A stretch of 64,000 bases of DNA, from positions 5,704,001-5,768,000 of the forward strand of contig OX344764.1 of the NCBI GenBank assembly GCA_947034895.1. The letters are read 5' to 3'. A program made the position numbers and the translations under genes. The notes under the pieces were generated by a model. It did not search any database. It was not told the DNA's origin and worked only from the letters and a program-made list of their open reading frames with translations. Positions 1,506-56,546 of the stretch are shown here, piece by piece (within the stretch, counting starts at the first letter, position 1; each line of letters opens with the position of its first letter). This DNA is from Rhytidiadelphus loreus (Eukaryota; Streptophyta; Bryopsida; Hypnales; Hylocomiaceae).

Positions 1506-2796
1506 ATGTCGAGTAGAGCGATTGTGCAAGACGGGTACAATAAGGAGAACCCGTTGAGCACTCTCAAAATCGTCACCCGGCCCATTCCCAGCGCCGGACC
1601 AAACCAAGTCGTGGTGCGCATCACGGCGCGTCCCATCCACCGCACTGACTTCCTCTCCGTGCAAACTGGCCGCGTCGGTGGCAACGGCAACGGCACGTTC
1701 GGCTCCGAGGGCTGCGGCGTTGTCCATGAGGTACGCAGCAATACACGAATTCTGTCACTCTATCCATGTATACGAATCTGCCGCAATTCGTGGGAGCTAG
1801 ATTGACGTATCAAGATATACAGAGCGCCAAACACGTGACGTTCAAATGCTCAAAACTTTGACAACCAGTGAGGGACACAAAACTTCACTGATTCTTGAAA
1901 ACTCAACCCTACCAATTCCGTGAAACTTTGCCATGATTCTGTTGAAAATGGGATAAGAATGGTTAGATGAATTGATTACGCTACACAACCTGACAGACGC
2001 GTGCATGTACCCCCAGGTAGGCGAGGGCGTGACCGCTGTACAAAAAGGACAACGAGTGGTAACCATCACCGGCACCGAAGTCTTCAAAGGCAACGGCTCA
2101 TTCCAAGAATACATCCTCCTGGACAAGTCTCTCGTCTGGCCAGTCCCTTCCGACATGCCTGATGAGCAAGCCGCGCAGTTCGTGATCAACCCATGGACCT
2201 CCTACTCCATGCTCCACGACCTGCAAGTCCCGAAAGGCGAATACATAATCCAGAGCGCAGCAGGCTCCACTCTCGGGAAGCAAGTCATCGCCCTTGCTTC
2301 CCACTACGGCATCAAGACCATCAATATCGTCCGCCGATCGGAGCAGAAAGCGGAGCTTCAATCCTTGGGCGCCGACGAGGTGATCTGCTCGACGGAGGAA
2401 GACGTTGTGGCCCGAGTGAAGGAGATCACGGCTGGGAAGCTCGCGTGGGGGGCCTTGGACGCCGTCGCGGGCGCTATGACGGCCACTTTGGCTGCGTGTG
2501 TTCGTAACGGTGGCCAGGTCTTCGTTTATGGGGCGTTGGGTGGGACAAATTCTGTGTCCGTGAGCACGTTGGATGTGTTTCGTGATGTGCGGATTGGGGG
2601 GTGGATCATTTATAATAAGATTATGCAAAGTACGGAGAAATGCCATGCTGTTGCGAAGGAAGTCGCGCCGCTCATCACCAGCGGGGTGATTCCGCTTGCT
2701 GAGGTTGAGAGGTGGGCATTTGACGATTTTTTGAAGGCGATGGAGGTGGCGGAGCAGTCCGGGGGTGTGAAGAAGATTTTGCTCGTCACGCCGTAG
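1506..2796 (+). CDS. Zinc-independent medium-chain dehydrogenase/reductase (2-enoyl-CoA/quinone reductase-like), two exons
   Basis: The gene is exon 1 1506-1730 (75 codons) plus exon 2 2017-2796 (259 codons and TAG), 334 residues in all, a normal length for the family. The intron (1731-2016, 286 bases) is phase 0, starts GTACGC and ends CCCCAG. Splicing joins GSEGCGVVHE to VGEGVTAVQKGQRV, which rebuilds the typical GxEGxGxVxxVGxGV...G signature of the GroES-like catalytic domain. Residues about 125-145 contain the NPWTSYSML stretch seen in mitochondrial enoyl reductase relatives, and AAGSTLG (156-162) opens the Rossmann nucleotide-binding fold. The Cys/His zinc ligands of alcohol dehydrogenases are absent. 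The family reduces C=C bonds of enoyl or quinone substrates with NADPH; the exact substrate is not readable. A signal or transit peptide is not obvious. The exons are visibly more GC-rich than the surrounding DNA. Confident in family and structure, not in substrate. Confidence 0.88.
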
Positions 2797-8569: not shown

Positions 8570-9262
8570 AAATAATGGATCTCAATTACATACTCTATAA
8601 GTTTGCAAGTACACTAGAATTAATTACCTCTCACCACCTACTAATTACCAAACAACTTTGACTCTAGTAAGATACAAAATCTACTTAACTCTTAGAGGTT
8701 GTATAGCCACTTGCAATCCCTACTCTCAAAAAACACTAGACAAATCATCAACAATTACACTCACAATAGAATGCCCCCAAAGCTATATAAATCCATTTAA
8801 ACTACGAATTTTTTATAGAGAACATGCTTAGAATATTTCTTAAACTAGGCCTAACTAAAAGATTAGAGTGCCAACAAAAAGTGATGATGTCTTTGACGAA
8901 GGGGCTCAAATCATGTGGTAGTTCAGGTTGGGCTCCATCAAGAATAGCATCTCGTATTTTACAAGAATGAACCACACTCAAATGGCAACTTTCCTATGGC
9001 AATCTTGTAGCACGTCATAGCAAAGCTATACACATCCATTTCCTTAGTGAACACAATCTCTGATCCTTCAATTGTTGTAGTAACTCAGGCGCTCTCCAGA
9101 ACCCCGTTCCCATCACACTGACGGAACATTCCCAGTCAGACACACTTGGAAGAAAGAAAACATGATCATTGGGAGACACTGCCAGATCACAATTCTTCTT
9201 CCCTCCAAACGAGGAGACTAAAACATTTGCAACTTTCAAATCCCTGTGTATGATACCTATAC
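8570..9262 (-). pseudogene. 3'-terminal fragment of a protein kinase gene related to 54314-55645
   Basis: On the minus strand 8890-9262 matches the C-terminal half of the intact kinase: the segment after the catalytic loop, SDWECSV in place of the usual DFG region, GTGFWRAPELLQQLKD, and the last subdomain, with frameshifts and stops. The similarity continues past the stop codon into what is the 3' flank of the intact gene (8570-8890 against 53345-53453 plus 54178-54368). The intact locus has an extra 0.72-kb TIR element in that flank which is absent here, so this copy records the empty site. The 5' part of the gene is missing from about 9262 upward. Confidence 0.8.
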
Positions 9263-9279
9263 TAAAGGAGGAATCCCAT

Positions 9280-9526
9280 TCTTGACCACTTAAGCGATTT
9301 TGGGCATCTGTAAGGCAAGTTTGATCGGTGGGAGAATTTTTCCATGTGAAGAAATATAGTTTGATCAGTTGGAAGAATTTTTCAGAATTTTTTACTTGAA
9401 GACGAATTTACTATGAATTTTTGAGCTCTAGGTTTTGTCTTTCCGCTTTCCATGATATAGGTCTTGCTATTTTTGACCACACAATTGTCAGAAAATGGAC
9501 AACGCTTCATTTCTTTAATGGGCAAC
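9280..9526. repeat. Fragment of the 1-kb dispersed repeat X
   Basis: The run from ACCACTTAAGCGATTTTG through AATTTTTCAGAATTTTTTAC to TACTATGAATTTTT resembles the repeat at 16370-17353 in the same orientation, at low identity. Confidence 0.45.
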
Positions 9527-10488: not shown

Positions 10489-12890
10489 CTACCTGCCTTC
10501 CATGACTTGTGAGTTTTTTATTGACGTAGGGGAGTGAGCTGGAGCGAGAGGTCCTGAGCATCGTCGACCTTCTACTGGGATGGACGGCATGACCATCTCC
10601 GCCCCTAGTCGTGCAGCCCGTTGAGTACTCGCCTGAGCCCTGGCCCACACTACATCTTGCCGCTTTTGGGAGTTGCGGGCCCACTCCAAGGCCTTTTGCG
10701 CTTTTTCTTCTGCCTTCCGCGCTTTTTCCTCAACAACTTGGCGTTGGTGAGTTTCACGTTGTTGACGTCTCTCCTCGCACTGCACTTGTTTTCTCTGCTG
10801 TGCAGCTTGCCTTGAAAGTCACCATATTTCCTTCTCTCTTGCTTGTTGTTCATTTCGATCTTGCATTTGTTTCACGCTGGCAATGTATGCATCTGAAGTG
10901 ACAAGAATGGATTTAGAAAAATCGACAATGGGATCAACGCTACGTTTACGTTGTTTTGACTTTGGAGCAACTGTGGGCAACTGCAAGAAACGCGTGACAG
11001 AATTAGGATTTTTGTCGACGTCGCCACCTTCGACCTCGCTTGCTTGTTCCGTAATCAATGTTCCTGCAGCCACAAAAAAATGTTCAGTGGAAGCATTTGG
11101 AGCCACCTGCAGGTCACCTTCGATGTCGTCATCCTGTAAAGAACGTATGTCCTCTTCTTCCCTATTATCGGCTTCACAATGTGATGTATCCTTTGGTACT
11201 TCGACAAAGTCGTCAATAGGTGATGGAATTGGTTTGGTAGACTTGTAAATTTCACTAGGGCCTAGCTGTGCATCCACTGCCATTTTGTTGAGTGGATAAA
11301 TCCCTGTGCACTTGAAGCCCTTGGTGATACTGTTGATGGTCAAAGCACGGCGCAAACTTAGAGACACCCACTGAGCAAGGATTTGTTTGGATGCAAGGCG
11401 GTTGAGATTTCACGATACCCAGAAATCGCGGTATTGCCTAAAGTAGGTCTTGAAAGGTCCAAATACACAGACATCCAAATGTTGAAGAGCATGCGATGTG
11501 TAAGACAGTAAGGTCACAATGTCCACTTCTGCTTTTTGTGCCTCTATAGCCACTTTAAGAGTGACATGACTTGCATGTCCATCTACAACAAGTAAATGTC
11601 GTTGTGTAGGAGAAATGTCAATGAGTTCTTGGACGTTGTGAATGAAGTGTTGAATCCATGCGCTGAATAAATCCGCAGTCATCCATGCATTCTGTTGCAT
11701 GGCCATGGTGGTAGCTGATTCACAATGATGTAAATAGTCTTGGCGCACACGTTTACCTTTAAAAATGTAAAATGATGGAATTGCTGACCCTGCTGCGTTG
11801 ATCCAGACCAAGACGGACAATCACTCCCTTTGATCCGGGATGGTGCGGTGCACATGACGAGCACCTTTGCGGCCTAAGACAATTGCTCCACGATTTCTTC
11901 CAACCTGCACACCGCTTTCATCACAATTCCACACCCTATGTAGAGGATATGCATGTAAGGTATATAGTAGCTTTAAATTTTCGTAGAAGCTTTGCACATT
12001 CTCTACACACAAACCTTTGGCATGAGAGAATGGAAGAGCTTCCGCTGTCCTCAATGCGAGCTTTGGGTGACAGTGTCTGAACCACCTCAGCCATCCATTA
12101 CTTGGGATTCCATTCTTGAATGGTGTCACTCGACTCTTAGTCATCTTGTAAACTTTCATTTTCAGGCTTAGGGGACTCAAGCCTAGTCCCCTGTCGCACA
12201 TGGCAAGTGTGTACTCCACTAGCTGCTGCTCTTCATCATCTGTAAGAACACTATGAATTCCTCGCTTTCTTGATTTTCGCACACCATAGCACCAATCTCT
12301 GAAAGTGGAGTATGGAATTCCGTTGTTTGAAGCAGCTTGCCTCATACTTGCTCCTTCTTGATGTTGTTCCAATGCCATAGTCATTTGTTCATCTGTCCAC
12401 CAAGAATTTTTTTTGGCTTGCATACAACGTCTTTGCCTTGTCGTGATTGTTGTTGTTTAGGTTGCACATTGTTGACATCTTGCAACGTACTGTCTTCTAT
12501 TGCAGGAGATCGATGCAGTGCTACATCCCTTTCATTGCGTTCCTGGCCCCCGGGCTTGTTGAAGACAAGCACGCCCTTCTCCTTGCGCAGCCTCTTTTTG
12601 TCCACTACCGATGGATTCTTCATCTGTTGCTTGCGTTGGCGCAAACTCTGCCCACGAATAAGCCTAGCGGTGCCACTTTGCCCGCTTGTTGCTATAAAGT
12701 CTTCGTCCCCGTTGCTACTCCTTGCACCGGCTACGCTACTTCTGCTGCCCTGTCCCGCCCATTGTAGCACAGGTAGGGCATCATAGTTATTGGCCCCGTT
12801 GCCAAGTTGATGGTCACTTGTAGTACTGTGACTAGTGTCTAAGCTCCCGTCAGATGGTATTGGCTCTTCTTCAGTACTACTGGAGTTCAT
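10489..12890 (-). pseudogene. pogo/jerky-like DDE transposase (HTH_psq, CENP-B-type HTH, DDE_1), inactivated
   Basis: One long minus-strand gene of roughly 800 codons is interrupted by four lesions. A Ser/Asn/Gln-rich N-terminus starts at 12890. A frameshift falls in a run of eight T (12407-12414). Then come a psq-type helix-turn-helix (DEQMTMALEQ...SMRQAASNNGIPYSTFRDW), a Tc5/CENP-B-type DNA-binding region, and the DDE core: WNCDESG (Asp at 11920-11922), VVDGHASH (Asp at 11581-11583) and LDVCVFGPFK (Asp at 11473-11475), so all three catalytic acids survive. GFKCTGIYPLN follows, then an acidic region and a basic, Gln/Arg-rich coiled coil. In-frame TGA codons at 11821, 11410 and 10819 break the frame, which otherwise continues. 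The gene family moves DNA by cut-and-paste at TA sites or is domesticated; here it is dead unless the stops are sequencing artefacts. I could not find its terminal repeats. Confidence 0.85.
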
Positions 12891-29716: not shown

Positions 29717-30710
29717 TACATGGCCTGGGGCTGGATGGAAGGCTGGCCCGATTTGCCTCCAATCTGGCCCACAATCCGGCCCCAAATCACCACTCCGGAC
29801 CCAGATAATGTGAAGGGGTTGAGGCCGAATTCTGGGGCCGAATTCCAATTCATCACTCTGGCCCTAGGTAATGTAAAGTGTTGAGGTCCAATTCTAAGGC
29901 CGAATTCTTGATTAATGTGCTCTTGAATTTTTGGAATGCTTAATTAAAAAAATCTACGACATGCATCTTTTTATTTTTTATACTTTAGGAAAAAATAGTT
30001 TTTTTTCTATTTATTCTATTTCAAATATAGGAAAAAAAAATAGAATTCTTTAGACTTTTCCTTTTTATTCCTACTTTACCTATTTCAAAATGGAAGAGAG
30101 ATTTTTTAATTTTTTTTAACCTTTTCCATTCTCTTCCTATTTTTTCTATTTGGAAAAAAGGAAGTTCTTTGACTTCTTTTGAACCTTTTTTTTTTTTACA
30201 CTAAAACTAGAGTTGACATTGAAAAAAGATTTGTAGCCCCATAATAGTTGTCATTTATTAAACATACAATTCAAGAAAACATGTAATTTTTTTTAATCTC
30301 TTTTTCAAATCTATATTCTTAGTTTATTTTAAAGAAAGCATAAAAAAATTTATTATGAAAACTTGAATGAATCCAATGATAAATGTAAATCAAGTTTTAC
30401 CATACATGTTATTTCTAGTAGCATAATTTTTCCTTACCATATTCTTTTTTCAAGTATTTGTCATCAAAATTGATAAAAACACACATTATCTTATAGATGT
30501 CAAATTTTTTGGCATTACTTCAACAATGACTTTCATTTACAGATTTGTGTCTATATAAAAATTTACTTATTAATCATGTAATTTATCAAAATTAGTGTCT
30601 TATAACATAGTATGTAATTTGTGTCTACACCAAATTCTTTTTTTATTAATATCTCATGCTAAAACAATTGCAAAGACATTATTGTTACAATTGCAATGGT
30701 TAATAATAAT
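29717..30710. other. Intergenic: GGCC/GGCCGAATTC-rich patch, then very AT-rich DNA
   Basis: 29717-29910 is rich in CCGGCCC, GGGGCCGAATTC and GGCCC words resembling 31495-31960. From 29910 to 30710 the sequence is extremely AT-rich with long homopolymers. No coding frame is evident. Confidence 0.4.
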
Positions 30711-31393
30711 AAAATTCATTATTAACAATAAAATTCATTATTAACAATAAAATTCATTATTAACAATAAAATTCATTATTAACAATAAAATTCATTATTA
30801 ACAATAAAATTCATTATTAACAATAAAATTCATTATTAACAATAAAATTCATTATTAACAATAAAATTCATTATTAACAATAAAATTCATTATTAACAAT
30901 AAAATTCATTATTAACAATAAAATTCATTATTAACAATAAAATTCATTATTAACAATAAAATTCATTATTAACAATAAAATTCATTATTAACAATAAAAT
31001 TCATTATTAACAATAAAATTCATTATTAACAATAAAATTCAGTATTAACAATAAAATTCAGTATTAACAATAAAATTCAGTATTAACAATAAAATTCAGT
31101 ATTAACAATAAAATTCAGTATTAACAATAAAATTCAGTATTAACAATAAAATTCAGTATTAACAATAAAATTCAGTATTAACAATAAAATTCAGTATTAA
31201 CAATAAAATTCAGTATTAACAATAAAATTCAGTATTAACAATAAAATTCAGTATTAACAATAAAATTCAGTATTAACAATAAAATTCAGTATTAACAATA
31301 AAATTCAGTATTAACAATAAAATTCAGTATTAACAATAAAATTCAGTATTAACAATAAAATTCAGTATTAACAGTAAAATTCAGTATTAACAA
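30711..31393. repeat. 19-bp minisatellite, about 36 units in two variant blocks
   Basis: The unit is TTCATTATTAACAATAAAA. From the start to about 31041 nearly every unit reads TTCATT; from 31042 to 31393 every unit reads TTCAGT. Within each block the copies are almost identical, so two variants have each been amplified as a block. The last complete unit carries one further change (ACAGTAAAA). Confidence 0.97.
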
Positions 31394-31494: not shown

Positions 31495-31960
31495 GGTAGA
31501 CGGTGGAGATTTGTCCGATCCAACGGAGGAGACGAATGTGACACCAATCCGGCCCTAGATGGGAAATCGGGCCACCAAAAACCTTAGCCCGATTGCTCCC
31601 TTGGGGCCGGATGGTTTGGCGCCAAAACCATACCACCTAAGGCGACACGTAGGATGAGTGGTGGTTTCATCCGGCCCCAAGTATAAAGCCCTTGGGCCGG
31701 ATTTGGAAAAATTGAGCAATCCCATTGGTTCAAACTTGGAGAGTTCCGGCCGGCCTTCAATCCGACCCCAAGTGTATACCGGCCCTAAGCTTTTGGCCCC
31801 CTCTGCATATATTCGGAGGATCCATATATATAAAAAAATATATATATAAAATATATATAAAAAACTCCGGTCTTCAAAGAAGGCCGGCGTGAATAAAGTG
31901 TCTGTTCGTAATGACAATGGGCCGGTGTCCAATGGAGCAAGGGCCATTGATGCAGAACTA
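31495..31960. other. GGCCGGA-rich segment of unknown origin
   Basis: Words such as CCGGCCC and GGGGCCGGA recur in both orientations, giving short potential hairpins. A 130-codon minus-strand frame (31555-31947) is Pro/Gly-rich because of these words and does not look like a protein. CTCTGCATATATTCGGAGGA (about 31800) recurs at about 60909. Confidence 0.35.
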
Positions 31961-32273
31961 CTCTTCCCTTTTGAGAATAGACACTTTACGGACTAGTGAC
32001 CAGAATAAAGCAACCAGGGGTTGAAAAGGTGGATATGAAAAAAAAAAAAAAAATAGATGTTGTAGTATGATGTCTTTATTCAATGGGTAGTGGTTGATTG
32101 TTTTCAATTTTTCTTTTATATAGGATGATTGATCCGGCATATTGGATGGCAATGGTGTTGATTGTTTTGAAAGTATACTTTAGAGCGGCTTTAGGTACGT
32201 TTAGTTTATTTTCAAGGAGTTTCATTGATGGAGCATGTGTTGTTCCTCTGGCTCCAGCTGTAATGACAATAAG

Positions 32274-32738
32274 TGGGTCAACATTCCATCCGAGGGCTAT
32301 GATGCTATTGATTAGTGGTTGATATTTTTGAATTTTGTCGGCAACTGGGCTTTGTGAAAATCTATCATTGGTGAATGTGAATTCAATGAACTGTATAGTG
32401 AGATTGTTATCCGGGTTAGTTGGTGGAATACTTTGGTATGGGAGTCCTTTTACCCATAGCATGTCCGGTTTGAATCTAGCATTGCAGTGGCATCTTTGTC
32501 CTTCACAGGAGCAAGGCAATAGCCATGAGGGGACAATGTTTTCTTGTGGGTTATTGTTGAATATGCCTGCGTTCATTAGAGTGTAGTATCTTGATTTTTT
32601 GTTTGATATTATTAATTTCTGTAATTCCCATACTGCTTTGTTATGTCTTTTGACTCGGAGGGCGTGTATATGTTGTTGACTGCATTTTAGAAGTACATGG
32701 AGCCATGTGTCTATATCTTGTGATCTACATATAGAGCA
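32274..32738 (-). other. CCHC finger and restriction-like endonuclease (REL) motifs at ORF2 C-terminus
   Basis: C-x2-C-x9-H-x4-C (CSIC...HVLLKC) is followed by VKRHN, then FKPDMLW and FIEFTF, then a KIQKY segment. R/KHN, (R/K)PD and a following acidic residue are the motif set of the R2-type restriction-like endonuclease. Its presence with the N-terminal AP-endonuclease is what marks the element as Dualen-like. Confidence 0.65.
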
Positions 32739-33767
32739 TGTGATTGATGGAAATCTTTCTATGCCAAAAAATAGTTGTTTTCGAGCATTGCCCATATATT
32801 GGCCAATGCGGAATTTTAATAGGTTTGTTTTCTGTGAATCTGTTATGTGTGGGTTAGACCAAAAGTCATTAGAGAGAATATTATCTATGTCTGGATTGAG
32901 TGTCCATTTGCTAATGTTGGGGAATTTTTGTGCCAATATTACTAAGTTTTTATCATGATCGTATTTGTTGATGTATGTTTTAAGGCATCTGACTGGTCCT
33001 TTATCAGGTTGATGGGCCGGGCTTGGCCATTCATCTTTTTGGGAATAGAATGGTGTGGTGTGTGCAAATTCATATGGTTTTGAGGCAAATTTGTATACCT
33101 TTGTTGTTCCGTTTTTAGCTAGTCTGTCTGCATGTTCGTTGCCTAAAATATTACTATGGGCTTTAATTTTGGAAATTGTTGTAGGTTGCGTACGACTTTG
33201 GAGCATTGCTACCATAGATTCAAGTATAGTTTTATCCGCATGGTTACGGTGTATCGTAGGGTGTTTTAATTGTGTGTTAAGTACATATAAACAGTTTAGG
33301 CAGTCGGTAAATATGTGTGCTGGTTCGTGTGGATATTTGGTAGTGATTATTCGTAGTGTTTTGTGTATGGCCATTAGCTCAGCTCTGAAAATGGTTTGGA
33401 GACCGGGTAGTCTTTTGGAGATTTGGATTTCTTCTTTGGAGGGGTTGTAAATACCATATCCCGCTTTTTCACGTACCCAATGACCATCAGTGTGTTGTTT
33501 AGGCAATATAAATGATCCATCAGTGTAGTAATTGTATTGTGATTGGTATTTTAGTTGAGAGTTGGTTGTATATGTTGGTATAGGAGGTGTATGGATATTT
33601 ATTAAGTTGCAGTTGGATTTATATGTAAGTTTATTCCACTTAGTGTTTTTGTTCACTATTACATTTTGTGGTGTTGCTTGAGCAATTTGTATGTAGTATT
33701 GTGGTATTTGCATATTTTGGAGGATTAGTGTGAGGGAGTTTATTTGGTTAAGTGGGCCAATGTTATT

Positions 33768-34256
33768 GTTTTGTTGGTGTATACAGAAGATATGTATTGC
33801 AAGGGGTTCATTCTGTGGCCGTTTATTAAGTTCAGGCGGGATTGTGGGTTCGTCATATATAATGGTGTCTGCAGCAAAATGAGTAATAACGTGTGTGTCG
33901 TCAAAAGGTCCGGTATATGGTGAAAAGTTTTGATACCAATTGATATCTGGTATGACTAGTATGGTTATAGTATTTAGATCATGTTTGGCCGCTAATTGTG
34001 CCCAGTGTATCGCTTGTTGCGCTGTTTCCTCATTGTGAGGATGTGCGAAGCCAATACCTTTCCATTTGTATTCAAAGGCTGTTCCAAGTGATCCAAATAG
34101 TTTGTCTCTTTCAAATTGGGAGTAGAATTGTGTGATTTGTGTAGAGCAGGTAATTGGTGAGGAGAAATATGAGTGGGAAATGTTAAATGTTTTTGTAAGA
34201 GATTCTAGGATATTGTGTGGGAGTGTATGATGTGATGTTCTAAGTGGATTTTTTAT
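33768..34256 (-). other. Possible Dam-like adenine-methyltransferase-fold module, catalytic motif altered
   Basis: The module lies upstream of RNase H in the same frame. It contains TQFYSQFERDKLFGS, then WKGIGFAHPHNEETAQQAI, TITILVIPDINWY and a later HFAADTIIYDEP. The order (aligned F/S...N-like position, FYS...D, W-G-FANPP, hydrophobic strand ending VPDxxW) resembles phage- and retroelement-type Dam methyltransferases. The expected NPPF/Y at the active site reads HPHN here, so even if the fold is right, catalysis is doubtful. It could instead be an unrelated element-specific domain. Confidence 0.4.
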
Positions 34257-34607
34257 TTATTTTTATATTTGTATCTTTGATAAAGCCATATTATTTCAGT
34301 TTCGAATGATTGTGCCGGTGGTACAAAGGTATGTGTGTTATTTTTTGCAGTGTGATATTGTTGCCAAAGCCATTGTAGTCGATAGTTGGGATGGTAATGA
34401 GGTGTTGTCCAGTATCTAGGTATAGGTGTGTTCGTTCATTTTCCGTTATTATGGTGTGTGTATTTGTAAGAATGTCTTTTTCTGGATTACATTCGGAAGT
34501 GGATATAGATGTTAGTGGGATTATTGTTGGGGGTGGGATGTACCTAGTATCTCTGGGTTTTTCCTATTGGAAGTGTAATGTGATAATTTTTTGTAATGTT
34601 CGTGTTG

Positions 34608-34814
34608 TTGTCTTGTGTAATATTGTGTTAGTAGATTGATATTATGTGAGATTACTGTTGGTTGATTAAAAGGGAAGAGATCTCTTTGTGGCATCCATTG
34701 AGCATAAATTGTGTCATTCGGCATTTTATATTGACATAGGTATGTATTATATTTTTTGGAGATTTTATATGAGTCTTTTATTTCTTTGGTTTTGAGTTTT
34801 GTTATAGTATATAT
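34608..34814 (-). other. Possible chromo-like module in ORF2 between RT and RNase H
   Basis: The stretch has the order IYTITKL...KYNTYLCQYK...YAQWMPQRDL...INLLTQYYT. This parallels the chromodomain layout YxVEKIL...YLVKWKG...TWEPxxNL...LIxxY, with the aromatic/Trp positions in place. Chromodomains guide some LTR elements to heterochromatin. The match is by eye and the domain is not usual in non-LTR elements, so this is tentative. Confidence 0.4.
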
Positions 34815-37800
34815 GAGGGTTGTATTTGGGTTGTTTGGGATGTGTATTGATTGATTTTGTGGTCTTAGTATGTATGGTGGTTCTAGTGAATTGAGGCGAG
34901 GGGGATTTTCTGAAGGTCTTGGATTTAGATCGCGGTTGTTTGATATATATTGCGCTTTGAGAGTTCTTGCTATTGTGTGGATTTGGCAAGGATTTGAGCA
35001 TTGTATTGTACATTTTGGGTAGCAGAAAAGTTGTTCAGCTATGTTTAATGTGTAGATGCTTGAGACATCCATTCTTTCTCAAGTTCCGTTGTATGGAGTT
35101 GGAAGCTTTCTTTTATACTCTTAAGGTGGATGCCTACTTCATGTTTGAGTAGATACAAAGTTCTTGTCGTAGGTGATCTGGTACAATCATGTGATTTGAT
35201 TCTAGGGATGTTTTCTGCACCTCCGTGTTTGGCTAAAATATGGTGGATGAGTCCTTTATATATTATTCCTAATCTTCCTGGATCATTGAGGGCATTTCTA
35301 AGTTGTTCACTGATGCAACGTAAATATGCATTTTTGAGTGAAAAGGCTTCTAGGCCAAAGAGATTATGTGGAAGTTGTGCTATTACATTTGCAGTACATT
35401 TTGGTAATCCACATATAGTTTTTTGAATGCCAATGATTTTTTTGTCTAATTTTTTTATTGTTGGTAGAGAGTATGGAACTGCATAAAAAGTGTAGGCTAT
35501 GCCGGCCCTAATTATAGTGTCCACCATGTTGATTTTTTGTTTTATTGTGGCTGGGCAATTTATAAGTTGTTCACATTGTTCTATGACTTTTTTTGTGGTG
35601 ATATGGGTTTGCAAGTTCCATTTTAGTGATGGTACTAGTTGTATACCTAAGTACGTGTAGGGTTCATTTTGATGTAGAATTGGTATTGGTTGACCTCTAA
35701 AGTTGATGTTCATGTTTTCAATTTGTTTTTTGAAGGAGTCAGGTTTTATTTTTGATTTATTTGGGCATCCTGTAATTGCGCATTTTGATATTCCTAGTTC
35801 CATTCCTGACCAATTGCAAAATTTATCTAATTTGTTAAGTTGGTTTTGGAGGGACGCCAGTTTATTTGATGTAGCTGCCAGGTCATCGGCGTATGCTGCT
35901 GAGCTTATTGTTATTTTGGATGTACCAAATGTATAACCGTTACTGCCGGTTTGGAGCCATCGGAGTAAAGGTTCTAGAAAGATAAGAAAAAGGTAAGGAC
36001 TAAGGGTGTCTCCTTGAATGGTGCCTCTTTGTATTGGTATTGGTTTAGTATTACCAAAGTGTTCGCCTCTAAATATTGTATTTGACTGTGAGTAGATATT
36101 TCCTATTAGTGCTACTGCATCCTTTGGATATCCAAGATCTAACATTATGGCGAGGAGTCTTGCGTGGTCTATGGATTCAAATGCATTTTTGAAGTCTATG
36201 TATAGTATGTAGATGTCTTGATTAGTGAATCATGCATCTTCCAATGTTGCTATGAGTAGTTGGAGTTGTCGTGTTGTGCTTCTTTCTGCTCTGAATCCTT
36301 CTTGACTATCATGAAGTATTTGGTGGTGTTCACCATACTCAGAGAGGATTAGGGTTATAGTGCTAGTGAAGAATTTATATATTGTATTTGCAAGTGCGAT
36401 AGGTCTATGATTTGATAGTTGAGAAGGATCTCCTTTTTTATAGAGTAGTATAGTTGTACTGGTTTTCCAAGAGGTTGGGATTTGTTTTTGTTTGTAACAA
36501 TGTTTGAAGAAAAGAAAAAGTAGATTATGAAAACATTGTGGCATACTTTTTAGGATTATATTAGGGATTTGATCTGGGCTTGGTGTTTTGTTATTGGCTA
36601 AGTTTTTTAAACAAATGTCATATGTTTCCTTGGTGAGGTAGGTATGTAGCGGGATTTCTTGGTTTCCTCTCTTCTCTATGATGAAACCATCTAAGTCGTG
36701 CCATGGGTATTGTCGTACTCCACACATACAGTGTGGTAGGTGTTCTGGTAGATAATGGCATGTTGGAACTGTGGGTCGATTACTGATAGATTGTTGGATG
36801 TGTATTTCGTTGGCTATGTCTTCCGGGTTAGTTAGTAGGTTGTTGTGTCTGTCCATAATGCAATCTAGTGAGGGTGTGTTTAGGTTCTTGAATACTCTTT
36901 TGTTTATTTTCTTAGGGCTCTTTTCATACAATTGTCTATATTTTGATATAGCTTTTTTGATACAGTTTTGAGTGTATTGTGTAGTAATCTTTCGGGCTTG
37001 TACATTTGCATTTTTGGCTAAGTTGGCTAGCGTTGTAATCCATTCTTGTTGGTTAGGTTCTTGTGTTGGAGGTGGTGGGATACAAATATGGGTGTGATTT
37101 TGTAGTTCTGCCATTATTGGGTGTGTTGTCCAATGTGTGGTGTTTTTGGTTATGTATATTGCTTTTCTAATTAAGTCATATGTGGAAAGGTGGGATTTTC
37201 ATTTCTTTTGTAATTTTCTTGGTAGGTAACCCCCCTGTTGTGATGTGCAAGTTGTTAGTTGGGGAAGAGGTGGTGCGCTGCACGTTTCAATTATTTTATC
37301 AGATATATTTTGTACTAGGTGGTCTAAAGTAGTGCATGCTATATGCCATTGTTGTTCTGTTAGATGTTCTGTATTGAGGATAGTGGTTAGTTCGTTTATT
37401 TGTAGTATGTGTGTCTCGAGAAAATTTGTTTTAAAATTTTCTATATTGTCTTGGGGGATAGGGTTTAAAATTCTTGGCAGTTTATTTTGTGGTGGTGTTA
37501 TAGGGCGTGCTATTAGTGTGTTTGGTGGTATATGTAATGTTACAGGTGAGTGATCTGAGTTGAGGTTGTGGTTGTGATGCGTGGTTGATGTATATAAGGT
37601 CGGATTAGGTACTTTAATGTAATAACCATCAATTAGACTGGTTTGAGTATAGTTATGTCCGCCTTGTCTAGAAAATGGGCTATTGGTTTCTGTGTATGTG
37701 AGGTGAAGGTTGTTTGTAAATGTGCGCCATTCTATGTCTTCTGTTTGTGGTGGGATTCTGTTAGATTCATTTTGTCTTCCTATAAGTGCAATATCTCTAT

Positions 37801-38926
37801 TGAAGTCACCACATAAAACGGATGTGTATTGTGGGTGTATAGAAATTTGTTGGTTTATGTGTTGTTGGATTTTTGGAATTAGTTGCAAGTCATCGGTATG
37901 TGAAGGCATGTATATGTGAAATAGTAGCCATGGTTGTAGTGGTTGATTATTTATTTTTATTATTTGCAGATATGGTGAAAATTCAGTAGGAGTTGGGATT
38001 TTGGTGATGTATCCTGGGAAGGTGTATTTTTTATTTATGAGAGTGAGGAATCCGCCTCTATTTGGTGTATATTGTCTTCTTTGTTGTACACACCTAGTTA
38101 ATGTGTGTGTATTATTAAATATTAGTTTATATTGTGGGAATAAATTTTGAATGTATTTTGTAGATTTTGTGGCTGTTATTTTGGTTTCTTGTATTGTTAT
38201 TATAGCCGGAGTATCTGGTGTGAGTTCTATTAATTGATGAAGATTTGGTAGAGCCGTATTTATTGATGAAGCATTCCACGTGGTTATGTATGTATTAGAA
38301 TTTGTTGTTTGTGCTCTTGTTGAATGGTTTGAGGGTAAGGAGGGTTGTGGTAGAGGATGAGAGTATTCTGTCAGAGGGTCTTTATATTTTAATATTTCTT
38401 TTAGTATTTTTTCGGGTAAGAAAGGAAATTTATTACTCATATTTTGTAAAGTTATTGGTTCGTTTGTTTGTTTAATGAAACTATAGATTTCTGTATGGAT
38501 TGAATTAGGGGGTGTAATGAGTGATGTATTTATGTCTTTAAATTGTGTATATGGGTGGGGAGTTGTGATATGTCTTTCTGGTGGGTTTTGTAGCGATGAC
38601 ATTTTTTCTAGAAGAGACATGGTCCAATGTGGGAGTGGTGTTTGTATTAGTGTTTGATTACATGTATCTAATAATGGGCTAATTGTGGTGATGAGTGCAA
38701 ATAAGAGTCTTGGTGGCAGGTGGTGTTGATTTTGGTAGATGTATCGGGATAGGTGTGGGTATATTGTAGTTGTGTTAATATGTTGAGGATGTGTGATGTT
38801 TAGTAGTGGTGCGAATGTTTTTGCTAGATGTTGGTATTCTGGTTGTAGTTTTATTGTGCATGCTATAAAGTACATTTTATATCTGTGTTTATGTGCCGGT
38901 GGGTGTGTTGTTAGTATGTCAAGCAT

Positions 38927-38956
38927 GGGGCCTGGGTTGGTTTCAATGTCACCACT
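38927..38956 (-). other. 2A-type ribosome-skipping peptide near the ORF2 N-terminus
   Basis: Residues 89-98 read SGDIETNPGP, preceded by a hydrophobic HLTILL stretch. This fits the 2A consensus D(V/I)ExNPGP exactly. In several animal and trypanosome non-LTR elements such a peptide near the ORF2 start separates an N-terminal leader from the enzyme by ribosomal skipping. Here it would release an 97-residue leader ending in Gly, with the downstream protein starting at Pro. Confidence 0.85.
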
Positions 38957-39300
38957 TAAAAGGATTGTTAGATGTAGTGGAAGTTTTTGATGTTGTGAGA
39001 TGAGTCCAATAGGTTTTGATTTAATTTGATTGTGATGGGTAGTTTGTGAAAATTTATTGACATGGTTATTATCATAGGGAGTGTGTTTATATGTATATGA
39101 GTTATAGGTGTTTAATTTGTTTGTTTGGGATTGTAAAAGAAAACGTTTGAAGAAGTGTGATGAGAAGATGAGACAAAACTCTTTATATATGTAATATTGC
39201 CAACAATTGGAGGTATACAAAATACAAATAAGAGATAACGTAGTACTAAAGTATATGTCTATGGCACTCTGTTTTTGGGTGATGGCGTTGTATAACCTAA

Positions 39301-40977
39301 CTAGTTTGGCGGAGAAGAGGGGTCTGGAGCTGTAATGGCTGGGCGGGCTAGGTTTTGAATCACTTGCATGCTCTGACGGAGAATGTCTTCTAAGTTTGTG
39401 AGAGCTCCTCTAAGGTCATTTTCCACCTTGTCTGCGTAGCTTTGTGCTTCTGTCTGTAGTTCTTCCTTCATTTGACTCATGTCAGACTTGAATTCGACTC
39501 GGAGCTTCAAGTTTTCTTTGGAGACTGCTTCTCCTATTAACGCTGAGAGTTCATCTCTGTTTAGTGGTTGTTTTGAAGCAGAGGATGATGCTGTGTTTTG
39601 CATTGCTTCGACTGTGCTGGCGAGAGCAGTGTTGATGTCTAGAAAGCCCCATTTTTGGAGTGTTTCATCATTGGGTTTCACAGACCCGTCCAAAGACTTG
39701 GGATGAGGTTGAAACTCCACGTACTTGTGTTGAAGACGTGCTGATTTCTTAACATGTTGCTTGTAGATTGCTGCATTCAAGCATTCGATGTTGGCAATTC
39801 CGCTATGAGCGTTGCCCTTGTGTCGGGGGAAGAAGATGGATTTGATATTCTTGTGTCCAATGTGATCATGTAATCCCTCTGATACTTCTGCAGTGGATTT
39901 GGTAAGGTTGATGTTCTTAGCAATCAGAACAAGACAATTTCTTTTGTTTACTTCTTCCTTGGTGAGTTGGTTCAAATCGATGTTGATAGGTTGTAGAAGT
40001 TCACCCAGTATTGCAATGCGCTGTTTCTTAATCTTCTCGAGTTGTTCAGGTGACGTTGTTGTTAGCCAACCATAGGGTTCAATAGTGGGTTTTTGAACCT
40101 GTGTCAATTCGAACTCGAAGCCTCTACGAAAGCTCTCTTCTAGTGTTTGTTTGAAGAGGTGATGGGGTTCTATGTTTCTGATGGTTTCACTATTGATTTT
40201 GATGGAGAGTAGGGTGCTGGTAGCTATGGGATCGAAAGATTTGGCAATTTTGGCGATTGTCAATGTGTCATTGTCCAAAGGGATTGCGAAAACTCTAGTG
40301 CCTCGGAGTAGGGCTTTGCCGTCGACCTCAGGGTTCGCTAGGTGAATTCTAGCCATACCCGACCAAACTTTGGAGTTCTTAGCGCCGTGGCATAGGATTG
40401 CTACCGGGTCAGCAATGCTATCTCCTATCTGTATATGCATTTGCTTGAAACGAAGGAGAACTTTTGACATGGCTTCCTTTTGAGTGAGTGGTACCTCAGG
40501 TTTCTCAAAATGCAATAGTATATGATAATCGAGTGCTAGATGGGTATGCATATTTACCTCAACATCAAACGGAATTTGTGTTAGGTTGAAGTGTTGTCCC
40601 GCAATGTTGTCCGGCCTAGATGTTGGCCATAGCTTCTGCTGGACACGGGGGAATGACATACGGGCTCTCGAAAGTTTAGCCGCTTCTTGTGCAGTATGTC
40701 CTTGGGCGATGAAGTCTGGTATTGTTTGTTTGTTGAGAAGTGGCATCCCGGCCTCATAGGCTAGGGTTTCCATAGTCGGATAGCCATACCAAAATTCGTA
40801 TGGTATTTGACCTTGGAGCTGAGTCAAGGTAGTGTCGGCGCCTTTCGGTTTCTTTTGGTGGGACTTGTCAGCTTTTGGGGTGGTGCGTTTGTGTGAGCCA
40901 GATGCTTCTTCCATCTCGATTTCATCAGGATAGGATACATGTCTATGTACCTTGTTGTTGTGAGGAGGATCCGACAT
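39301..40977 (-). CDS. Retrotransposon ORF1 protein, apparently intact, 558 residues
   Basis: The frame is open from further upstream (41724), but I place the start at the ATG at 40977 (MSDPPHNNK), because the preceding 249 codons look like translated leader: low complexity, unlike the rest. The protein has a basic N-terminal tail (SHKRTTPKADKSHQKK), a central folded region with FWYGYPTMETLAYEAG and GKALLRGTRVFAIPLDNDTL, and a C-terminal coiled coil (KENLKLRVEFKSDMSQMKEE onwards) ending Pro-rich. ORF1 proteins of non-LTR elements bind element RNA as oligomers; the coiled coil fits that. I recognise no named domain. Codon usage is clearly different from ORF2, being less A-rich. Unlike ORF2 it has no break over 558 codons. 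Confidence 0.75.
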   Translation of the reverse strand: MSDPPHNNKVHRHVSYPDEIEMEEASGSHKRTTPKADKSHQKKPKGADTTLTQLQGQIPYEFWYGYPTMETLAYEAGMPLLNKQTIPDFIAQGHTAQEAAKLSRARMSFPRVQQKLWPTSRPDNIAGQHFNLTQIPFDVEVNMHTHLALDYHILLHFEKPEVPLTQKEAMSKVLLRFKQMHIQIGDSIADPVAILCHGAKNSKVWSGMARIHLANPEVDGKALLRGTRVFAIPLDNDTLTIAKIAKSFDPIATSTLLSIKINSETIRNIEPHHLFKQTLEESFRRGFEFELTQVQKPTIEPYGWLTTTSPEQLEKIKKQRIAILGELLQPINIDLNQLTKEEVNKRNCLVLIAKNINLTKSTAEVSEGLHDHIGHKNIKSIFFPRHKGNAHSGIANIECLNAAIYKQHVKKSARLQHKYVEFQPHPKSLDGSVKPNDETLQKWGFLDINTALASTVEAMQNTASSSASKQPLNRDELSALIGEAVSKENLKLRVEFKSDMSQMKEELQTEAQSYADKVENDLRGALTNLEDILRQSMQVIQNLARPAITAPDPSSPPN

Positions 40978-41864
40978 TGTGCCTGTATTGAGTTGTTTTT
41001 GATGAGAAGAGAAAATGTAATTAAGTAAGACAAGTTGAGGGTATAAGGATAAGTCTAGTTTTGAAGTATTGTAATGGAGTTTCTTATGGATTGCAATGGT
41101 ATTGTTTGTGGTTTCAAACCATGTAAGATATATTATAAGAACCCTCCTAGGAGCAAAGGGCTCCCGGGCATGAATGGGTGTATAATATATCATTATGGGT
41201 AGGTGGACTTGGTAAATAGACATATGCTTTAAAGTAAGATAAAAGTGGTATGGGTAGGATAACATACCTCTAGAAGCAGTGTGGGCCCTGTGTGAGGATG
41301 GAGGTGGGGGGGTGTCCGAGGCTAGACGCTTGTGAATACAAAACTCAGTGGATACTAGAGCAGTTGGTGTGGTGTTGATGTTTTCGTGGCTTGATGAACC
41401 TCTGGTCTTTGTACGTGAGGTTGTATGTTGTTTGTGAGTATTCACTATAGTTTTTGGAGTTGGCCGCAAGCGTAGCTCCTTCTCACTTCGTCTTGGATTC
41501 ACCGGCTTGTCTTGGGGCTTGGTCTTCATACAGCTTTGATTGGGGTGTAAGAACACCGTGCGTCTCTCCACATAAGTATAGCCGCAGTTGTGTGTGTAAA
41601 CTATGAAAGAAGTTGGGTCTTGTTGTTGTCCTGTGAAGTCTGGCGGTTGATGAGCTTTTGAATATGGGATTCGTTGGAGGTTTGAGTACCTAATCTCCTT
41701 GACGTGTTGTTGGGATAGCTGCACAGATTGCTAAGGAGTGCAGTAGTTGTGTCGACCAATGTTGGCTGCAACTGGTTTCCGAATACCGGGGCGGTGTGGA
41801 TGTCTCCAGACTGCGGTGTGGTGATGTTGCTGGCGTGTGACTTGGCGATGCAACTCCTTCGCTG

Positions 41865-42265
41865 ATTTCGGTGAAGTCAGCTCCAGTTGTAGTGCCAGGA
41901 AGTTGCGGGGAGGTGATTCGGTGATGCAGGGCCCGCTCGGTGCACAACTACAGCAGGGTCGAAGTCGTAATTGCAAGCTATCGCTGCGTCTCCACGTTCT
42001 TGGGGTGATCGCTATGTCTCTTTGTTCTTCGGTGATGCTCTGACTGGGTGGTGTTGTCGCAGCCACTGATGTTGGTGAAGTCTGCTCCAGCTGCACTGCC
42101 CGAGAGTTGCGGGGTGGTGATTCGGCGATGCAGGGCCCGCGCGGTGGACAGATGCGGCAAGATTGAAGTTGTCGGTGTAGGTTGGCGCTGTGCCTCTTCG
42201 ATCTTGATGTGGTTACTACGCTTCCTGGTTCTTCGGTGGTGCTCCGGCTGGGTGGTGTTGTTGCG
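41865..42265. repeat. ~200-bp tandem repeat in the presumed 5' UTR of the retrotransposon
   Basis: CGGTGAAGTCAGCTCCAG...GTTGCGGGGAGGTGATTCGG...ATGCAGGGCCCGC at 41868 recurs as TGGTGAAGTCTGCTCCAG...GTTGCGGGGTGGTGATTCGG...ATGCAGGGCCCGC at 42071. Both units end with a GGTGGTGTTGTxGC segment. Tandem 5' monomers with promoter activity are known in some LINEs. Confidence 0.75.
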
Positions 42266-42355
42266 TTTCCTGGTTCTTCGGTGGTGCTCCGGTTGGGTGG
42301 TGCTGTTACGTTTCCTGGTTCTTCGATCGTGCTTTGGCTGGGTGGTGCTGTTGCG
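42221..42355. repeat. 45-bp tandem repeat, three units
   Basis: Units at 42221-42265, 42266-42310 and 42311-42355 share TTCCTGGTTCTTCGGTGGTG and GGGTGGTG. The length is a multiple of three, so antisense frames through it look like repetitive proteins (TTQPEHHRRTRKR), but there is no sign that this is translated. Confidence 0.9.
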
Positions 42356-42670
42356 GCAACAGGCTTCTATGTTGCGGGTGAAGAACGTGAGCTGCGTGTG
42401 ATCTGTTGCGATGTACAAGCACAGAGAAGAGGCTGTTGTTTGTTGTGACGAGAGGTACTTGTGAATTTGTTTGGGAGATTGTGGATAGAAGGTTTCCGTT
42501 TTGGGAGTGGTAGTGATTCGGGTTGGGTGCTAGATTTGGTATGTTGTGAGGCGCATGCGACGTGGTAAGTGAGTGTGGGTGTAGAGTAGCAGGGGTTGCA
42601 AGGTAGTAGGGATCTGGGGTGGTCGTGAGAAGAAAACAGTAAAGCAAAGAAATTTTTAAAAGAAACACAG

Positions 42671-43095
42671 GGAAAAGAACCTGATCATAAGTGACGGTGC
42701 TGAGTATGCATACTTGTAAGGTTTATCCACGTGCGGAATGTCGGATGATGGCGGGTGGAGGACGAACTGCAAAGAACTCCTGCTCTCGGTGGAAGTCTGC
42801 CGAAATCTAGTGCTTTAGTTTCTCAGTCCTGCATACGCCACCTTGTCTCTCCAGCCGCTCAGATTCAAGACAGGTGCTCCTTGCCGCAACAGATCTGAGC
42901 TTCCAGAAGTGTCCTAAAATTTCGAATCTCATGGTTTTGAAGAAGCGGAGTTGTCTGCAGTGCTCTTGACTTGCTCTACAAGGGTGGTTTGAAGTAGGAG
43001 CGGTCAGTCCTCGCCATTGCTGCATAGACAACAGGCAGCAACACCGCCATCATCCGGCCCGCGACGTGATCAGAGCTTAGCTCCGCTCCGCCATT
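42671..43095. other. Unassigned flank upstream of the retrotransposon
   Basis: Balanced base composition, no repeat or coding frame recognised. It may still belong to the retrotransposon 5' end. Confidence 0.3.
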
Positions 43096-54313: not shown

Positions 54314-55645
54314 CTACACTGACTTCAATTCAAATCTGATCATATCTGTAAGATTGACAAAACTGGGCCTCACTGAAGGATTGGAATGCCAACAAGAAGT
54401 GACGATGTGTTTGATCAAGGGGTCCATATCATGTGGCAGTTCAGGTCGGGCTCCATCAAGAATAGCATCCCGAGTTTCATGAAATGGATGGCCCTCAAAT
54501 GGCACCTTTCCTGTGACAATCTCATAGCAAGTCATAGCAAAGCTGTAGACATCCATCTCCTCAGTGAACACAATCTCAGAACTCGGAGTCCTATCCTTCA
54601 ATTGTTGCAGTATCTCTGGTGCTCTCCAAAACCCCGTTCCCACCACACCCACGGAACATTCCCAATCAGCCACACGTGGAATAAAAAAAACAGGATCATT
54701 CGAAGACACTGCCAAATCACAATCCTCCTCTCCTCCGGAAGGAGCGACTAAAACATTTGCAGCTTTCAAATCCCTGTGTATGATACCTAGTCCATGCAAA
54801 TGCTTCATATCAACGGCAATCCGATCTATGATTTTCACCGCTTGCTCCGTAGAAAAGGGCGGGCCTTCAGCGTTGTTGCGTTCCATGCGCAGATCGATGA
54901 GCGTTCGAAGATCTCCCCAGCGCTTGGGCATGACGAACCCAAACTGATGTCCTCCAGTGGCATGGTCTTTCACCAGAGCACCGTACAAAGGAAACATCCA
55001 GCGCTCCAGATTTAAATCTTTCACAACAGCAAGCCCTCGGGGCCATTGGCGCTGAAGGTCCTCAAGAGCATAACCAGACTTCATCACCTTCACCACAAAA
55101 TCACGCCCCATTTTAATCAACGTAGTGATCTCAATAGTCTCAATTGCGAACGTCACTTGAGCTTCGTAGATGACCCCTTGCGCTCCCCGTCCTACTTCCC
55201 TCCCCAACACCACGTCCGAAATTTGATTGCAAAATCCTCCCCATACTGCATCTCTTTGCAGCTCCTCAAAGTATTGGCGGTGATCCACACCGGGCTCATC
55301 TCCACTGCCGGTTCCTGATTCCCCACTGCCAGATCCTGACTCTTCACTGCTAGAAGCTCCCTCATGATGGCTCAATTCGCTCCAGTGCACTTTGGAATGG
55401 GCCGTTCGATATTCGAGCTCCGTGTCGAACTCACTCCTGCTGGATAACATGCTCGCAATCCGTGCTGAATGAAACTCGGAACAAGATGTAGAAGGCAGTG
55501 AAGCTGCAGAAGCAGACCCTTCGTTTCCACCACCAGTATTAGCGCCTCTGGCTGTGCTACTCTCCGCAAGGATGATGGCAGCATCTGCTCCCGCTCCCGA
55601 ATCTCCTTGTCCCGCACCCTTGGCCGTGCAAGAGATGTCCTCCAT
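54314..55645 (-). CDS. TKL-like Ser/Thr protein kinase, intronless, 443 residues, DWE in place of DFG
   Basis: The start ATG (55643-55645) sits in a good context (GCCATGGAG). Residues 1-140 are low-complexity, Ser/Gly-rich, with an acidic Ser-Gly patch at 97-116. The kinase domain spans about 146-440: glycine loop GRGAQG (152-157), ATP-anchoring Lys186 (VVKVMKS), catalytic loop HRDLKAAN (290-297), metal-binding Asp327 in ADWE, activation-segment end GTGFWRAPE (336-344), DVYSF (365-369) and Arg426 of the last subdomain. The activation loop starts DWE instead of DFG; Asp is kept, so activity is possible. A related pseudogene at 9.0 kb has the same DWE, so this is a subfamily feature. The GPPF...LHGLGIIHRDLKAANVLV pattern resembles plant tyrosine-kinase-like kinases. 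No membrane segment or signal peptide is seen, suggesting a soluble kinase. The substrate is unknown. Confidence 0.88.
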   Translation of the reverse strand: MEDISCTAKGAGQGDSGAGADAAIILAESSTARGANTGGGNEGSASAASLPSTSCSEFHSARIASMLSSRSEFDTELEYRTAHSKVHWSELSHHEGASSSEESGSGSGESGTGSGDEPGVDHRQYFEELQRDAVWGGFCNQISDVVLGREVGRGAQGVIYEAQVTFAIETIEITTLIKMGRDFVVKVMKSGYALEDLQRQWPRGLAVVKDLNLERWMFPLYGALVKDHATGGHQFGFVMPKRWGDLRTLIDLRMERNNAEGPPFSTEQAVKIIDRIAVDMKHLHGLGIIHRDLKAANVLVAPSGGEEDCDLAVSSNDPVFFIPRVADWECSVGVVGTGFWRAPEILQQLKDRTPSSEIVFTEEMDVYSFAMTCYEIVTGKVPFEGHPFHETRDAILDGARPELPHDMDPLIKHIVTSCWHSNPSVRPSFVNLTDMIRFELKSV

Positions 55646-56546
55646 GGCTACTGCGACTTGTCTCTGAACAAACGTTCGGACTTCGGAAGCAGGTTTTGGT
55701 CTTCTTACCTATCTCTGACGGAAGCTAGGATCGCCACCACACTCTCACACCCTCGAGAAACAGCATCAGAAACAACCTGCCGGTACACGATCTAAAGGAG
55801 TGCAGAACCTGGCTCAACTGACCACTAAGCAAGACGCCGGACACTCTGTCGGTAGTGAGACATCCATCGAGAGAGCAAGGAGTGCAAACACTGTCAGCGC
55901 GTAAACCCCAAAGAAGAAATACTCATGTCCTATTTCACAAGCCCCAATGCAAGCTCCTACGAAGACAAACCCCAAACAGAGACGAGCGCAAAACGCAGAG
56001 GCAGGAGTAGCACACGTGGCGGAAACACGTTGAGGTGGAGAGAGGTAACGTTGCCAGTACGTACTGTACTTTAGGTTTTAGTCGAGGGCCCACTGCTTAG
56101 TGGTGGTGATGTCGATGACGTTTGCTTGTGGATTTCTATATATATTGAACTTGCGTACTAACTGGTGTTTCCATGAGGTGAATACATCCTGATAAGATGT
56201 GAGTGCATAACGTTGAGTCCCTGCATGTGCATCGAGATTCTCATGAACAACAGACAGGCATTGCATTGACAGAGTTTCGATCTCAACTTCTGGTCATGAA
56301 TCTCCTGAAGATTCTTCTTTCCCTTCTGCTTGCTAGCTAGTTTACGTCTTATTGTTGTACTGTAAACGATCCTCTGCATTCATTTGAAGGGTGAAACCAT
56401 CAGAGATGGTCGAGGCTCGATGTGCTAGAGGCAAGTCAGCTTTGGGACTTTACCGTCTGATTAATCCAGATAGCACATGGTTGATACGGAGAATGACGAT
56501 GCTTTTACCATCAAGATATGTATAACTAATGAATTGTCTTTCTAAC
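55646..56546. promoter_or_regulatory. Kinase upstream region with G-box CACGTG
   Basis: This 0.9-kb flank is less AT-rich than the background. A CACGTG G-box sits at 56013-56018, about 370 bases before the start codon, with a second partial ACACGTTG nearby. No TATA box was convincingly identified, and no other gene is seen. Confidence 0.35.

Follow-up and report, generated by a model that had tools for sequence, protein, structure and literature searches.

What kind of element occupies the minus strand at the centre of the 64,000-nucleotide (nt) stretch analysed here (the window; contig C4, positions 5704001-5768000), and what might a methyltransferase-like module be doing inside it? The element is a decayed copy of a Dualen/RandI-group non-long-terminal-repeat (non-LTR) retrotransposon that likely moved by target-primed reverse transcription, and its second open reading frame (ORF2) carries a predicted PCIF1-like domain, lacking the catalytic motif, that likely serves the copying machinery by binding RNA; we hold this reading as a whole with good, though not full, confidence. 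The element is a new branch of a known group, and sequence together with predicted fold now gives one module of that group an identity. The parts on which the argument draws are the following.

31870..43094, minus strand: whole element, a decayed Dualen/RandI-group non-LTR retrotransposon, its limits fixed by blastn comparison with ten further genomic copies
40978..43094, minus strand: 5' untranslated region (UTR) with tandemly repeated units of 204 bp (x 2; 41862-42261) and 45 bp (x 3; 42222-42355)
39301..40977, minus strand: ORF1, 558 amino acids (stop at 39301, ATG at 40977)
39251..39313, minus strand: nucleotide-level conserved block of about 60 nt that spans the ORF1 stop and continues past it
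38927..38977, minus strand: 2A (StopGo) motif LHLTILLSGDIETNPGP, from the sequence
37541..38281, minus strand: AP-type endonuclease domain of ORF2 (PF03372/PF14529), catalytic residues conserved
37199..37201, minus strand: in-frame TGA stop of this copy, from stop-to-stop frames
35636..36436, minus strand: reverse transcriptase (RT; YADD), PF00078 in two pieces, split by an in-frame TGA at 36230-36232
35047..35048, minus strand: point at which this copy has lost 166 bp, from comparison with other copies
34597..34817, minus strand: chromo-like stretch, three strands and a helix by structure prediction
33591..34410, minus strand: PCIF1/CAPAM-like domain, methyltransferase-folded by prediction and split here by a change of frame, start approximate
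34032..34046, minus strand: AHPHN, at the position of the PCIF1 catalytic NPPF
33108..33539, minus strand: RNase H with four acidic residues (PF00075)
32682..32738, minus strand: CCHC zinc finger, from the sequence
32079..32660, minus strand: R2-type restriction-like endonuclease (RHN, KPD, E and K motifs)
31862..31986, minus strand: end of the 3' UTR, a predicted folded RNA, then a variable simple-repeat tail

These assignments come from a Pfam profile scan of pieces of the window, a PDB profile search, and structure prediction followed by a structure search. Every module named in the initial annotation was recovered on the minus strand and in the order claimed. The AP-type endonuclease, with its catalytic residues, is confirmed by PF03372 and PF14529 matches and by residues conserved across relatives; the scores of the window copy fall just below the curated cut-offs (23.3 versus 24.5 and 23.5 versus 27.4), which relatives exceed, and the ratio of nonsynonymous to synonymous substitution (dN/dS) is 0.14. 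The RT (PF00078, 3.1e-22 in the window copy) has a dN/dS of 0.08. RNase H matches PF00075 at 1.3e-14, and its acids are kept in relatives (D 58/67, E 81/82, D 83/86 and D 80/84), as are the residues of the zinc finger (C 41/43, C 39/43, H 45/46 and C 44/46). The C-terminal nuclease, which had been proposed from motifs, gave no match in the PDB sequence search and was found by structure only: the structure search returned a predicted R2-like fold, and the motif residues are conserved. Both nucleases of the proposed pair, AP-type and predicted R2-like, are present, and both, together with RNase H and the PCIF1-like domain, are conserved and under purifying selection.

The PCIF1-like domain was originally described as a Dam-methyltransferase-like stretch. 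The methyltransferase-like fold stood, whereas the Dam identity gave way to PF12237 (PCIF1/CAPAM methyltransferase), matched at 5.5e-11 in the window and 1.6e-13 in copy L029; a PDB sequence search reached PCIF1 at E 0.06 only, and the structure search of the predicted model reached it clearly. The module is real and no local oddity: it is found across the clade, and a domain of this kind sits at the equivalent position in 32 of the 33 checkable relatives, which makes it probably an ancient core component of the group. The domain differs from the cap-adenosine N6-methyltransferase PCIF1/CAPAM in carrying AHPHN rather than NPPF and in lying inside ORF2, between RT and RNase H. Among the matches listed in searches of an open-licence literature library, none describes such a domain for a non-LTR element, and an earlier mention is possible.

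The domain likely binds RNA instead of methylating it. The main alternative is that it is still an enzyme, with AHPHN (in relatives NPEY, HPPF or SPPF) as an altered catalytic loop that would methylate element RNA, cDNA or target DNA. This would suit the conservation of AHPHN within the element's own branch, the retention of the predicted fold and of the F-x-S-P and D-x-x-F-G motifs, a constraint similar to that on RT, and the SPPF of relative P0080; because SPPF, HPPF or NPEY is present in relatives, some of these may indeed still be enzymes. We nevertheless consider it unlikely, because [DN]PP[FYW] occurs in 0 of 91 rows, because the motif differs between branches, and because human PCIF1 with APPA is reported as inactive in an excerpt of PMC8452764. 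One further alignment, which RT fragments would mislead, leaves out P0071, P0073, P0074 and P0075 and includes P0003 and P0024.

In the genome (407 Mb; 489 contigs, of which five, each 51-94 Mb long, hold nearly everything), 42 of the 46 PF12237 matches lie within 6 kb downstream of a same-strand RT match. The other four are at C1:73721159, C2:12080916, C2:371519 and C2:40954895, and at the first two the 3' tail of the element follows about 2 kb downstream of the PF12237 match. None of 14 control genomes gave a match in the same family search, though PCIF1 need not be present in them, and no separate host PCIF1 gene was recognised in the genome, where an intron-split gene could be missed.

Upstream of the PCIF1-like domain, the chromo-like stretch proposed at first was located and is predicted to form three strands and a helix (dN/dS 0.29), but the chromodomain label stays weak: the Pfam chromo model matches 0 of 11 family members, a PDB profile search of the stretch found none, and the hits listed from the structure search with model A, in which this part is barely covered, include none. 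Relative P0080 has a chromo match below the cut-off (3.4e-4). Other relatives carry a PHD finger between RT and RNase H (P0096 and P0097 above the Pfam cut-off, P0102 and P0110 below it), and in P0096, P0097 and P0102 it precedes the Pfam-found PCIF1-like domain, where the chromo-like stretch sits in the window element.

The second alternative concerns the start of ORF2. ORF1, in which no known domain was found, is constrained as protein (dN/dS 0.10 between subfamilies), and ORF2 overlaps it in the -1 frame; no match to ORF1 was found in any of the 216 relatives, even in those with long frames upstream, and hence none shows it fused in frame to ORF2. In one of the two comparisons between subfamilies, but not in the other, the block of about 60 nt at the ORF1 stop ranks within the top ten 60-nt windows for conservation; it is possibly a signal for access to the ORF2 frame. 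Within ORF2, the window copy has a GDIETNPGP core that fits the D(V/I)ExNPGP pattern of 2A/StopGo peptides. The 2A-type peptide noted at the outset holds up as a motif conserved in relatives, ribosome skipping itself being predicted: a match around the site is present in 54 of the 216 relatives and extends to it in 38, with D[IV]ExNPGP in 31 and the NPGP end in 35 of these 38. The stretch could instead be an untranslated relic, ORF2 beginning at the methionine directly after NPGP, and this would fit both the absence in the window copy of an ATG upstream of 2A in the same frame and a leader that shows no constraint at the protein level. The retention of NPGP and a dN/dS of 0.22 over the 2A stretch (21 codons only) make such a relic quite improbable. 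Some relatives have hydrophobic stretches in the leader, and N-terminal 2A signal sequences are described in part of PMC4981915; a signal-peptide leader of that kind was considered and dropped, because the leader here is unconstrained as protein.

Placement in Dualen/RandI was examined with an RT tree (66 rows, IQ-TREE, PMSF) in which the element was entered as copy L029. It groups with three relatives (100/100) inside a 54-row clade (99/99) that includes seven Haematococcus proteins and one Pleodorina protein, with R2, human L1 and P0129-P0136 outside, and the proposed placement is thereby supported, the element standing beside dual-nuclease algal proteins. Two of the rows, P0118 and P0119, count as Dualen-like here on the strength of their domains: each combines Josephin with AP-endonuclease and RT, and P0119 has RNase H as well. 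That the element is instead R2-like, or another element that gained a second nuclease, is very improbable: its best PDB matches are R2 proteins (RT by sequence, the C-terminal nuclease by structure), but the 99/99 grouping leaves R2 and L1 outside, and the order AP-endonuclease, RT, PCIF1-like domain, RNase H is repeated in the long relatives P0082 and P0081.

With Dualen/RandI the element shares the RT clade, an AP-type plus a restriction-like endonuclease, RNase H (PF00075) and simple-repeat 3' tails; it differs in the 2A motif, in ORF1 and ORF2 lying in different frames, in its streptophyte host and in its own AHPHN branch. The original Chlamydomonas Dualen family (2005) reportedly has a cysteine protease domain. 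No Pfam match to a cysteine protease was found in the pieces of the element scanned, and the protease looks variable within the group because Josephin occurs only in P0118 and P0119 among the clade rows listed. The host was suggested to be a streptophyte, and this is upheld by five LEAFY-family matches in the genome (best 1.8e-27), LEAFY being, we presume, confined to streptophytes. The R2 protein shares the CCHC finger and the predicted C-terminal endonuclease fold and motifs; an AP-type nuclease, a 2A and a PCIF1-like domain are, to our knowledge, all absent from R2, and the insertion sites read for the element, unlike those of R2, are unrelated to each other. Non-LTR retrotransposons bearing 2A include L1Tc and sea urchin CR1, whose RT clade is other than the element's; they too have 2A upstream of the endonuclease domain, and the element differs from them in its plant host. 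Dualen/RandI is defined by an AP-type plus a restriction-like endonuclease, with RNase H reported, in the portion consulted of PMC4640811, and is recorded from green algae and, in a passage of PMC12747079, also from cryptophytes.

The extent first given for the element, 32060..42670, was not borne out. Comparison with the ten other copies puts its 3' end at about 31870 and its 5' end at 43094, the latter common to four of the ten; the T-run at about 32045 is internal to the 3' UTR and not the element end. The RT piece has at least 108 matches in the genome, several of them pieces of one copy, and such counts are lower bounds (105 of 351 candidates were scored); those at the weak end, with some 30% identity, probably belong to other long interspersed elements. 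The window subfamily occupies at least 8 other places (94-97% identity, at least 362 of 394 residues aligned), and a second subfamily at least 19 near full-length places (82-86% identity). The 5' UTR with its tandem repeats is likely the promoter region.

Target-site duplications of about 11-13 bp (one mismatch allowed) flank four of the five copies with both ends set, the duplicated target sequences being unrelated to each other; another copy is 5'-truncated, with a 3' end only. The 5' ends of c1_11.2 (L017), c5_0.64 (L021) and c5_38.8 (L023) show tens of copy-specific bases between the target-site duplication and the common 5' end. Tails are simple repeats that vary between copies, for example (AT)n, (ATT)n and (ATCT)n, and are of the kind tabulated for green-algal RandI, (ATT)n and (CTATTT)n, in the part available of PMC3747384. 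The last 125 nt before the tail have a fold z of -2.47 (2 of 200 shuffles as good) and are nearly identical in both subfamilies, while coding dS is about 1 or more; because of this fold score and near-identity the folded end is likely the start signal for reverse transcription. An Rfam search returned no match up to E 1.

Six of the 40 3'-tail matches were read, at sites that by eye have no RT match close by. Two have duplications (9 and 12 bp), one of which flanks a copy of about 180 nt, L039. A short interspersed element (SINE) sharing the 3' tail was sought among the six; none looked SINE-like and no tRNA was seen in them. Two, L034 and L035, both on contig C4, share 894 bp at 93.6% and the same short 3'-tail insertion, and are one duplicated locus.

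Several observations weigh against the overall reading. The window copy is dead: it has two in-frame TGA stops (37201-37199 and 36232-36230), the 166-bp deletion, and further frame changes near 34521-34563 and 34257-34290, and it is the copy at which no target-site duplication was found. The 166-bp stretch is kept in all ten other copies (c5_38.8 has further extra sequence there); an intron was rejected as the cause of the difference, since the stretch is coding where it is kept and has no GT-AG. Among the ten copies compared, not one has both ORFs unbroken, although copy L029 has an open frame of 1782 codons from upstream of RT to the end. Open frames come cheap, the strand being A/C-rich. 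In the RT tree no row is labelled Dualen or RandI, since the references are proteins from algae and metagenomes that were recognised by their organism or their domains; the tree also has several long outgroup branches and eleven rows of odd composition. Covariation in the 3' UTR is thin (a two-sided change in 1 of 41 pairs), and no canonical -1 slippery site was recognised by eye in the ORF1/ORF2 overlap.

The scheme we propose is movement by target-primed reverse transcription. ORF1 protein would bind element RNA, and ribosomes would frameshift or re-initiate close to the ORF1 stop and so enter the -1 frame of ORF2; at 2A the ribosome would drop the leader, so that the enzyme begins at the proline after NPG. 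The ORF2 protein would then recognise the folded 3' UTR, and one nuclease would make the first nick, probably the AP-type because the few insertion sites read are not alike, while the R2-type nuclease would bind the target or make the second cut. Near the RT, the PCIF1-like domain may hold the element's own RNA, perhaps by a capped 5' end.

Elsewhere in the window, a 19-bp tandem array of about 36 copies, 99% alike (30704-31393), begins about 480 bp beyond the 3' end of the element. A protein-kinase-like frame was seen by eye at 54314-55708 (minus strand), and a shorter frame at 9015-9407 (minus strand), whose IIHRDLK...WRAPE stretch is closely similar, is perhaps a duplicated fragment. Adjacent frames at 10819-12456 (minus strand) look to us like what is presumably a pogo/Jerky-type DDE transposase, and the frame at 1957-2796 (plus strand) resembles, by eye, a quinone oxidoreductase or enoyl reductase.

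Dualen has been used, in part of PMC4640811, as a link from old elements with restriction-like nucleases to younger ones with AP-type nucleases, and a streptophyte element with both nucleases under selection makes a division of labour between them testable. StopGo has no natural use found in plant viruses according to a section of PMC12846837, with which the motif in a plant element contrasts. The PCIF1-like domain can be recognised across the clade, yet we found no role in retrotransposition described for it, and the missing NPPF poses a clean question, namely what the PCIF1 fold does without its chemistry. A tentative answer, which we rate as possible but somewhat doubtful, is that the Dualen/RandI ancestor captured PCIF1 and switched off its chemistry, and that the fold was kept between RT and RNase H to read the capped RNA of the element itself; if true, a cap-modifying enzyme would have turned into a self-recognition part of a retrotransposon.
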